Assembly (NCBI GenBank): GCA_026210745.1
Contig: CP110630.1
Span: 6,820,001-6,884,000 of the forward strand
Length of the DNA stretch: 64,000 bases
Source: Exobasidium rhododendri
Lineage: Eukaryota > Basidiomycota > Exobasidiomycetes > Exobasidiales > Exobasidiaceae
Direction: 5' to 3'
Below the pieces are notes generated by a model. The model saw only the letters and a program-made list of their open reading frames with translations, ran no database searches and was not told where the DNA came from. Both the position numbers and the translations under genes were made by a program. Positions 15,123 to 19,373 of the stretch are shown here, piece after piece; position 1 is the first letter of the stretch; the number at the start of each line of letters is the position of its first letter.

Positions 15123-16884
15123 ATGTGCGGGATATTGTTTCATGTGAGCCCGCATGGTAAAGATACGCCTTCATGGTGGAGCTCACTGGTAGCAACAAAC
15201 GAGGCGAGAGGTGAGTGCTAGCTTGTGTCTACACTGCTTTCTCTAGCAAGGTCTGATCTAAATGCCCCTCCTCATCAGGGCCAGATGCCTCTCAACAAAG
15301 CACTATCAGGATTGGGTACAACCAGGCAAAAATACATAGCAGTGTGCTGGCCCTCCAGGGCGTCGAGATCACAAGGCAACCAATCTTCACCCAAGATGAT
15401 CGCCTGCAATTGTTGTGGAACGGAGAAGTGTTCGAGAGTCAATTCGAAATGGACCCATCCATCAATGATGGCCAGCAGCTGTTGAGTCGCATTGAACAGC
15501 TTTCTGGCATCGCTGACGAACCAAGATCAGTCGAAGATGCATTCGTCGAGGTGCTTAGTAGCATAGAGGGTCCTTATGCAGCCCTTCTCTATGACGTGAG
15601 CTTTCTGTAGGACGATGCCGATGCAAAGCAAGAAGACTGATCTTTCCCTCTTAGTCTCTCTCTTCTACACTCTACTTTGGCAGAGATCCTCTTGGACGAC
15701 GCTCTCTACTTCAGGGGTCCAGTGATGGTACAAACTTTTGCCTGTGCTCTGCTGCAAGCCTTGAAACTATTCAAGAGGGTGTCCGCTTCTCTGAGCTAGA
15801 CTGCTCTTCTCTCTGGAAGGTGAAGTTGAATGAAACGAACTTTGAAGTCGAAGCTGTCCCGAGACAAATCACACAACATACAAAGCCCTTCAAGCTATAC
15901 GAACTACAAGAACTACAAGGTAACGGAGCGCCATACACATTGAAGGGTGCTGAACAAGAGGTTGTTCTGCAATTTCTCTCCATCTTGTCCGACAGTGTTC
16001 GTAGACGAGTCTGCCACATCAGGCCTCATGGTAGTAGCAAAGAGGCGCAGGTCGCCGTTCTATTCTCAGGGGGACTAGATTGTTGTACTCTGGCGATGCT
16101 GGCTCATATGCATCTCGACCCAGCGCAACCGATCGACCTCCTCAACGTCGCTTTCGAAAATCCCAGAGTGCTACATGCCAACTCTAAAGCGGGCAGTCTC
16201 ACTGCCGAATCAAAGACATTCGACGTTCCCGACCGCAAGACTGGCCATCAGAGCTTTGAAGAACTCAAGCGATTGTCACCAAATCGGCAGTGGAACATGG
16301 TGGAGGTCAATGTGCGTCACACAGACTATCTCGCCGAGAAGAGCAAGATCGAGAGCCTAATGGAGCCATGTATGAGCGTGATGGATCTGAGTATCGCTGC
16401 AGCTCTCTATTTTGCCTGTCGTGGAAAGGGAAGTGAAGGCTATACTAGCTCGGCCAAGGTGTTATTGTCGGGTCTAGGAGCAGATGAATTGCTTGGCGGC
16501 TACACTCGACATCGGAAGATGTTCATCCTGAAAGGAAAGCAAGGACTCATAGAGGAGCTTCAGATGGATCTTGATCGACTTGCTAGTAGAAATCTGGGCA
16601 GAGATGATCGCATTCTATCCTCCAGTGGAAAGGAAGCTCGCTACCCATACTTGTCCCACTCTGTCATCACCTTCTTGGCAAACTTACCCATTGAAGCCAA
16701 ATTGGACTACGACACTCTACCGGCAGGTCAAGGTGATAAAAAGCTGCTGCGAGACGTTGCTCGACACTTGGGATTGCAGCAGACGAGTACGCTGGTGAAG
16801 AGGGCGATTCAATTTGGTGCTAGAAGTGCAAAGATGGAGATGGGTGCTGGCAGGATCCTTGGTCATGAGAAACTCAAAAGCTGA
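15123..16884 (+). CDS. Asparagine synthetase domain-containing protein (ASNSD1-like)
   Basis: Three exons, join(15123..15210,15279..15595,15655..16884), encode 544 residues. The protein begins MCGILFHVS, so Cys2 would be the N-terminal nucleophile of a class II glutamine amidotransferase domain after methionine removal. This domain continues to LYFGRDPLGRRSLL. A PP-loop ATP pyrophosphatase motif (LFSGGLDCCTLA, near residue 273) and LLSGLGADELLGGYTRHR define the synthetase half. The overall shape matches the eukaryotic ASNSD1 family rather than true asparagine synthetase, judging by the long linker and divergent N domain. The substrate is not established for the family. The start is fixed by the MCG motif. 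A 15-nt alternative intron at 15596 was dismissed in favour of the 59-nt one. Confidence 0.88.
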
Positions 16885-17148: not shown

Positions 17149-17989
17149 TTATCTGAGCTTGCGGAATACCTTTGGTGCAGTGCACGTACTAGCACAGTGA
17201 GCGAGGTGGACTGTTTGGGGAAGAGCAGATGGGTCAGTATGAGATGGGCAGAACCTTCTTTGCCTCGAAAGCAGGCACACTCACAGCTAGGTGAAGGGAA
17301 GGGTTCGGCCAATTGAGCAGCATAAGCGCCGTTAGTATCTCGCCCTCTTTGATCTTTCACGCTTATTGCAGTACTCACAACTCTTCTACGCAATTCTCAT
17401 CCTTGAACCCATTTCCAGCTTCGACTCTTTCTTGACATTCGAGGAAGTGGTGCTTTGCAGGTGAGCACTCTTTTGAGTTTTCGCAATCTGTGTGTAGATG
17501 CATCAGGGAGAGGTTAGCGCAAAGCTTTTGACGAAAAGAACATTGTACGTTACTATGGCTCACCTTCGTAAATGCCGGGCATGATCTGCAATGAGACGAA
17601 GCAAACACCAGAGGTCAGCCTGCACTTCTTCTATCGCTTGCTACCTATCAAAAAGCACTCACGTCTTCGGGCTCGTCGTCGTCCTCCTCTTCCTCTTCGC
17701 CTCCAGCATCACCACCCTCCTCTTCCTTGTCGTCACCACCTTCTTCCTTCTCGCCACCCTCGTCCTTTCCATCATCACCACCTTCATCGTCCTTTCAAGT
17801 AAAAAGAAAGGAAAGCAAGGTCAGACAATCTCGAGAGGTACCTCGTCGTCCTACTACCTCACTCACCTCGCCTTCGTCAGCGTGTGCTACTGGGAAGAAT
17901 GATGAAAAGGCGGAAGAAATTGAATCGAAAAGTGACGACGAAGGCGCGGTGGCCTCATCAGCTCTTGAAGCGCTTATCGAAGATGACAT
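17149..17989 (-). CDS. QCR6: Cytochrome bc1 complex subunit 6 (hinge protein) with a 2-nt microexon
   Basis: Six exons, complement(join(17149..17210,17285..17286,17379..17487,17564..17585,17663..17791,17867..17989)), give 148 residues. The N terminus (FDSISSAFSSFFPVAHADEGE) leads into a long acidic tract (DDEGGDDGKDEGGEK and onward), typical of the hinge protein that helps dock cytochrome c to complex III in the intermembrane space. The cysteine-rich core is intact: DCENSKECSPAKHHFLEC, then ENCVEEFFHLAHC, ending APKVFRKLR. Exon 3 is only 22 nt. The join from ENCVEE to the C terminus needs a 2-nt exon (CT, 17285-17286). Both flanking introns start GTGAGT, end TAG or CAG, and contain branch sites (TACTAAC near 17336, ATACTGAC near 17238). 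Without it the frame shifts and stops within 10 codons. Confidence 0.88.
17285..17286 (-). other. Predicted 2-nt microexon of QCR6
   Basis: The dinucleotide CT (minus strand) sits between an intron ending CACCTAG (17287..17378, 92 nt) and one starting GTGAGTGTG (17211..17284, 74 nt). It completes two TTC codons and so yields EEFFHLAHC, the family consensus. Expression evidence is not available here. Confidence 0.75.
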
Positions 17990-18469: not shown

Positions 18470-19373
18470 ATGCCCAGCGTACTGATCCTCATCGCAGAAG
18501 GGACCGAGGAGATGGAGGTGAGGAGAAATTGGTCGTGATCGTGCTGCGAGTGATCAGCGTCCGCTCATGTGTGAAAGGCTGCCGTTCAATTGCCGGTAGT
18601 TTACCATCACCTATGACATCCTGGTTCGTGGAGGTCTGAATGTAAAGAGTGCATACGTTGGATCTTCCGCTCACTCTGGAGAGGAAGACCCTCATGGCGT
18701 CCCATTTGTGACCTGCTCTCGAGGTGTCAAGATTGTGCCTGACTTGCGACTGCCTGATCTGGCCGGAGGAAAGGCACTCGAGGAATATGACGCCATTGTC
18801 GTTCCGGGAGGGAACAAGGGAGCGGAGATCATCAGCTCGAATGAAGATGTCGCTGCTCTACTCGCTGCATTCTATGGAAAGGGCAAAATTGTTGCCTGTA
18901 TCTGTGCAGGTGAGACAGACACGCAAGGGGGAGGGTGAACATTGTGACCCATAGACTTATGCTGCTTGCCCTCCTCCTCTAGGAACACTGGCAATCAAGG
19001 CGGCAAATGTAGGAAAGGACACTGCTGTTACAAGCCATCCTTCTGTGAAGGCAGAGCTAGAGAAGGGTGAGTTCCACGCTTCTTCTCTTTGAAGGCGATC
19101 GCATACTAATGCCGCCCTGTTCAGATTATACCTACAAGGAGGAGCGAGTCGTCGTGGCGGAGAATCTTATCACGAGGTAAGGAGTGAAATGGTTGACATT
19201 TTCTTGGTTGGCGGCTAACAATGCATACACAAACGTCTTTCTATGCACATGCAATCTTCAGTCGAGGTCCTGGAACGACATTTGGCTTTGCATTGGCAAT
19301 TGTAGAAGCTCTAGCGGGTAAGGAGAAGAGGGAGGAGATTGAAGAACCAATGGTTCTTCCTCCGACGCTTTAG
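18470..19373 (+). CDS. DJ-1/PARK7-like protein (DJ-1/PfpI superfamily)
   Basis: Five exons, join(18470..18517,18600..18909,18983..19066,19125..19176,19262..19373), encode 201 residues, close to the normal length. The start [17 protein letters not shown] contains the conserved glutamate (E near residue 15) used by DJ-1 to polarise the catalytic cysteine. [14 protein letters not shown] and the nucleophile elbow ACICAGTLA (Cys near residue 118) follow, then [15 protein letters not shown] and the closing [18 protein letters not shown]. Known activities of the family are redox protection and glyoxalase or deglycase-like chemistry; which applies here cannot be read from sequence. All introns are GT-AG with consistent phase. 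Confidence 0.92.

Follow-up and report, generated by a model that had tools for sequence, protein, structure and literature searches.

Ultra-short exons are rare but already known elsewhere. In plants, exons of 1 nt occur in APC11 and VPS55 (PMC4674806, PMC8831610), among them that of Arabidopsis APC11, and the available text of PMC4674806 considers exon definition very unlikely for APC11, considers simultaneous removal of both introns very unlikely as well, and judges intron definition with recursive splicing, in which the introns are removed one after the other, to be applicable. In fungi, Nelson and Syed described in 2026 (PMC12940212) a 1-nt exon in the Fusarium gene CYP621A, which they called the first for a fungal gene; in its available text the same report also refers to a basidiomycete exon of 8 nt, in Phanerochaete, and cites, from an earlier study, exons of 2 to 5 nt in Arabidopsis, Drosophila, and human. 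Two related systems depend on unusual juxtapositions of splice sites, as far as the available texts describe them: stwintrons (PMC9024468, PMC12403724, PMC5639578), in which a splice element of the outer intron is interrupted by an inner one, with no exon between them, and zero-nucleotide recursive splice sites or ratchet points (PMC13149111, PMC4674806), in which a 3′ splice site is followed almost immediately by a 5′ splice site.

The QCR6 gene of Exobasidium rhododendri appears to contain a coding exon of 2 nt, CT, which joins the published 1-nt exons of APC11, VPS55, and CYP621A. Like the CYP621A exon, in the available account of the latter, it belongs to a fungal gene, falls in a conserved motif between two short introns, was missed by public gene models, and was deduced from reading frame and protein alignment; the CYP621A exon differs in being 1 nt long, in being found in Ascomycota, and in being backed by 20 orthologues and RNA reads, whereas CT is predicted here from the sequence of one genome. 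The APC11 and VPS55 exons are likewise frame-critical, located in conserved genes, and misannotated, with stepwise intron-defined splicing proposed for APC11, but according to the available texts they are 1 nt long, have RNA and RT-PCR evidence behind them, and are widely conserved across land plants. The cited microexons of 2 to 5 nt are of the same size class as CT but come from lineages other than fungi. An earlier note on this locus had placed an exon of 2 nt at the physical limit of exon definition, which does not hold because 1-nt exons are reported as validated in Arabidopsis and Fusarium in the available texts (PMC4674806, PMC8831610, PMC12940212). As with stwintrons, the interval around CT would undergo two consecutive spliceosomal excisions in a fungal gene, but QCR6 introns 4 and 5 are each complete, and the 12 in-frame GT-AG net excisions in the range that we enumerated (see below) all give the wrong protein tail. 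As at ratchet points, a 5′ site lies close behind a 3′ splice site, but QCR6 has TAG-CT-GTGAGT rather than a YAG directly joined to GT, would leave 2 nt in the mRNA, and has an interval of 168 nt in all instead of a very long intron. In the literature on fungal and ultra-short exons that was searched, with most subscription journals outside it, we found neither the QCR6 exon nor any basidiomycete 2-nt exon.

Exobasidium rhododendri is a plant-gall fungus; it belongs to the Exobasidiomycetes and thus to the Ustilaginomycotina, the group in which the earlier note had placed the gene. The window, meaning the whole stretch of 64,000 nucleotides that was analyzed, comprises bases 6,820,001 to 6,884,000 of contig C1 (7,127,044 bases) in an assembly of 17.65 Mb and 4 contigs. 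QCR6 lies on the minus strand at 17989-17149 and encodes the hinge subunit of mitochondrial complex III (UCR_hinge, PF02320). Its identification as QCR6 is borne out by a full-length UCR_hinge match of the spliced protein, and a PF02320 profile search of the assembly returned QCR6 as the sole match (one of two candidates scored). The six coding exons, obtained by conceptual splicing, join into a single open frame, 148 codons long before the stop, and the layout is as follows.

17867..17989, minus strand: exon 1, with the ATG at 17989; conceptual splicing, single open frame
17792..17866, minus strand: intron 1, 75 nt, GTGAGT...CTGAC...AAG
17663..17791, minus strand: exon 2, encoding an acidic stretch; conceptual splicing
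17586..17662, minus strand: intron 2, 77 nt, GTGAGT...CTGAC...CAG
17564..17585, minus strand: exon 3, 22 nt; conceptual splicing
17488..17563, minus strand: intron 3, 76 nt, GTGAGC...CTAAC...CAG
17379..17487, minus strand: exon 4, ending ...GAA GAG TT and encoding most of the UCR_hinge core (Pfam, on the genome and on the spliced protein)
17287..17378, minus strand: intron 4, 92 nt, GTGAGT...TACTAAC...CCTAG, branch to acceptor 44 nt, acceptor the first AG
17285..17286, minus strand: putative exon 5, the 2-nt microexon CT, with TT + CT + TC giving TTC-TTC (Phe-Phe)
17211..17284, minus strand: intron 5, 74 nt, GTGAGT...ATACTGAC...AAACAG, branch to acceptor 22 nt, acceptor the first AG
17149..17210, minus strand: last coding exon, TC-CAC...AGA-TAA, encoding HLAHCASTCTAPKVFRKLR

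An asparagine synthase domain gene (15820-16884, plus strand; PF00733, 77.6 bits) is the tail-to-tail neighbor of QCR6, and a DJ-1/PfpI family exon (18708-18935, plus strand; 50.2 bits) lies past its 5′ end on the opposite strand. An Rfam search of the whole window gave no match.

The two introns of 92 and 74 nt that had been proposed on either side of CT, each complete with GTGAGT, a branch motif, and a terminal AG, are present as described on the minus strand. Donors of the form GTGAG[TC] occur in all five QCR6 introns, as does a CTRAC motif after which the acceptor is the first AG, so that CT is bounded on both sides by complete canonical introns (GTGAGT, CTRAC, first AG) and the other three introns (75-77 nt) display the same signals. 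Branch-to-acceptor distances are 28, 28, 25, 44, and 22 nt for introns 1 to 5, respectively, which makes intron 4, at 44 nt as against 22-28 nt in the four others, the least typical intron of the gene; its branch motif is the yeast-type TACTAAC, the ideal form of the motif, and its acceptor is still the first AG after it. As a control for chance, the interior of the 168-nt interval was dinucleotide-shuffled 100,000 times while 6 bases at its start and 3 at its end stayed fixed, and a shuffle was scored as a success if it held an internal exon of at most 8 nt that restored the frame and was flanked by two introns, each with all motifs and at least 45 nt long. None of the 100,000 shuffles succeeded with strict motifs (GTRAGT/CTRAC); with loose motifs (GTRNG/YTNAY) 60 did, 19 of them with an exon of exactly 2 nt. 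Folding of the RNA across intron 4, CT, and intron 5 gave nothing unusual (z = 0.38). An origin of introns 4 and 5 by duplication was rejected, their likeness being at the shuffled level (local score 13; median 14 in 500 shuffles).

With CT included, the predicted protein has 148 aa, ends in EEFFHLAHCASTCTAPKVFRKLR, and matches UCR_hinge over positions 1-65 of 65 at 84.7 bits (cut-off 27.2). With CT skipped, exon 4 ending GAG-TT meets TC-CAC of the last exon directly, and a base-by-base check agrees with the earlier note that the frame then shifts: the product has 134 aa, reads ...EEFPPRSLC before the stop, and scores 50.6 bits. The tail obtained with CT is EEFFHLAHC-ASTCT-APKVFRKLR; the outer two segments had been given in the earlier note as if contiguous, and both are there, with the intervening ASTCT left out of that account. 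In the five best solved-structure matches, all read as yeasts or other fungi, the alignment passes EEFFHL and reaches the query C terminus or stops within one residue of it. In GenBank, this gene is represented by the 134-aa form without CT, ending ...EEFPPRSLC (CBS101457_002854, P0001; Exobasidium rhododendri CBS101457), and the gene model behind it, which joins exon 4 straight to the last exon, is very probably misannotated. Frame, family length, and splice signals lend good support to the earlier claim that QCR6 requires CT for its conserved C terminus.

The virtue of CT inclusion can be gauged against the other ways of splicing the same DNA. Single excisions were enumerated over a donor range running from 45 nt upstream to 60 nt downstream of the end of exon 4 and an acceptor range running from 74 nt upstream to 45 nt downstream of the start of the last exon. 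This range holds 1,732 in-frame single excisions, 12 of them GT-AG, 2 GC-AG, and 0 AT-AC, and a family-length tail resulted from none of the 14 in-frame GT-AG or GC-AG introns. Excisions of any kind that give the right tail length number 8, and the sole AG-ending one is a GA-AG intron producing EELFHL. Among two-intron models with GT or GC donors, 152 are in frame and 2 have a tail of the right length: the CT model, and one that has a 5-nt exon and two weak donors, GTTGTG and GCCCAT. UCR_hinge scores of other rival proteins were 74.9 bits for a TG-AG excision (one residue short) and 53.3 bits for a GT-AG intron ending GCTAG. Both the frame and the conserved protein therefore call for CT among the alternatives enumerated (84.7 vs 50.6 bits), with the GA-AG product close behind at 83.8 bits.

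Relatives' proteins were compared at the same site in a set of 127, for which one listing gave 120 of 261 matches. Phe-Phe stands at the CT site in 121 of the 127, a count that somewhat overstates conservation because the query itself contained FF and the matches were gathered by shared short words. The six others are P0001 (the skip form), P0011 and P0125 (which end at the intron), P0012 (MF), P0017 (IH), and P0041 (LF). In 122 of the 127 proteins, 12 residues separate EE from the AP-type tail, the pattern being unmatched in the other 5, and EEFFHLAHCA is found in all eight other matches recognized by genus as Ustilaginomycotina (P0002, P0004-P0009, P0121). P0011 (2.3-kb contig) and P0125 (41-kb contig) both end NCVEEL, as GAG TTG TRA would yield, and on the assumption that stop codons stand there the intron-4 donor is likely to be at the same place in both. 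P0003 (2.1-kb contig, Meira-type tail) has EEFFHLAHC unbroken in one ORF, in which intron 3 apparently still stands; a Meira-like lineage may thus lack introns 4 and 5, or that contig may derive from partly spliced RNA. A scan of bacterial and archaeal genomes for relatives' DNA gave one match, L076, judged to be coincidental and to lie within a bacterial frame, and a scan of viral contigs for relatives' DNA over the QCR6 site gave none.

The closest competitor is one non-canonical GA-AG intron (17376-17211, 166 nt), which would yield ...EELFHLAHC... with no microexon. Its product has the right length as well as the high score already given, LF occurs in one of the 127 relatives (P0041), and animal hinge proteins have EELF; yet such an intron would ignore a perfect GTGAGT two bases upstream and leave unexplained the complete second intron inside it, an arrangement absent from all of the strict shuffles, and FF rather than LF is the rule among relatives, including the 8 of 8 other Ustilaginomycotina matches recognized by genus. 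We regard it as unlikely. The interval 17378-17211 could instead be removed usually or often as one 168-nt GT-AG intron, so that QCR6 would yield the 134-aa product, or a regulated mixture of the two. The public gene model (P0001) is built in this way, and both outer splice sites are strong, but the product would lack the conserved C-terminal helix and end in an unrelated frame, with the drop in score noted above, and the PF02320 search found no second QCR6 match in the assembly. We consider such skipping very improbable.

A single canonical GT-AG intron of 124 nt (17378-17255, acceptor AGAAG) would also be in frame and free of a microexon, with the rest of intron 5 becoming coding sequence (EELFCPSHTDPSALPQTVHLAHC...). 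It would add 14 residues to a segment that keeps one length in 122 of 127 relatives, lower the UCR_hinge score to 66.0 bits, and bypass four earlier AGs after the branch motif for an acceptor that is purine-rich, and we consider it highly improbable. The QCR6 sequence rests on a single assembly, in which a 2-nt error at the junction might mask an ordinary single intron; such an error would need to have hit the splice junction exactly and would turn AG-CT-GTGAGT and two branch motifs into coincidence, which the shuffles show to be rare, leaving this explanation with next to no credibility.

We therefore consider it very likely, from the sequence, that QCR6 has six coding exons, the fifth being the 2-nt CT, probably constitutive, and that it is spliced through two successive intron-defined excisions. 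The spliceosome would take each short intron (92 nt and 74 nt) as its own unit, that is, by intron definition, and would remove introns 4 and 5 one after the other, since U1 and the 3′ splice-site machinery could hardly fit on both sides of 2 nt simultaneously. Either order would serve: removal of intron 4 first would leave TTCT/GTGAGT, and removal of intron 5 first would leave CCTAG/CTTCCAC, with the sites for the second step intact in each case. The earlier note had taken the exon to imply recursive or intron-defined splicing; intron definition with two successive events suffices, and recursive splicing, though it may occur, does not follow from the exon. Inclusion of CT is probably constitutive: the hinge protein would be truncated if CT were skipped or intron 4 retained, and retention of intron 5 would replace the conserved tail. 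A regulated switch, in which inclusion gives the full hinge protein and skipping the 134-aa form so as to tune complex III assembly, perhaps across Exobasidium, seems improbable to us.

CT thus presents itself, on sequence evidence, as a real, well-supported ultra-short exon that public annotation has missed. Confirmation by RNA would establish a coding exon of 2 nt in a basidiomycete, and in a respiratory gene with a housekeeping role; since QCR6 is expected to be well expressed, the order and fidelity of splicing around an exon below exon-definition size should be measurable in ordinary cultures. As it stands, the GenBank QCR6 protein of the species ends in what is very probably the wrong frame, and the same misannotation can be expected wherever exons of such size are beyond what gene finders can model.

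The rarity of the arrangement within the genome was gauged with the narrow pattern GTGAGT-N42..103-YAG-N1..8-GTRAGT, which gave 16 + 60 = 76 matches genome-wide against 72 + 99 in backward controls; patterns with the branch motif gave 24 (CTAAC) and 138 (CTGAC) matches against 293 and 285. With fewer matches than in the backward controls, microexon-type patterns show no genome-wide excess. Of the 76 matches, 2, QCR6 and L128, have a branch motif in each intron (CTRAY, first-AG rule), with ∼160 nt on each side examined for 59 of the 76. Among first donors of the form GTGAGT and at the spacings of that pattern, QCR6 stands as the one convincing case. L128 (G000:C3:2487167-2487592) has a possible 1-nt exon, G, with long branch distances of 47 and 56 nt and no protein recognized in its frames. 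An intron model trained on genomic DNA was noisy (57 motif-defined introns vs 71 in reversed sequence), and its branch-distance figures were left unused.

A separate scan for exons of 1-12 nt over 75 loci and the window returned 19 entries, QCR6 being counted three times, and eight other places were examined. The candidates at L015 and L034 were rejected, as they look like coding sequence read as intron, and five more of the eight count as candidates. Pfam support was found at L058, where a G-alpha gene ∼30 kb from QCR6 (L058:6994 onwards, plus strand; G000:C1 ∼6,806,995) probably includes a microexon of 9 nt (TATGACATA), flanked by introns of 75 nt and 69 nt, with a Pfam G-alpha score of 207.3 bits with the microexon and 191.9 bits without it.
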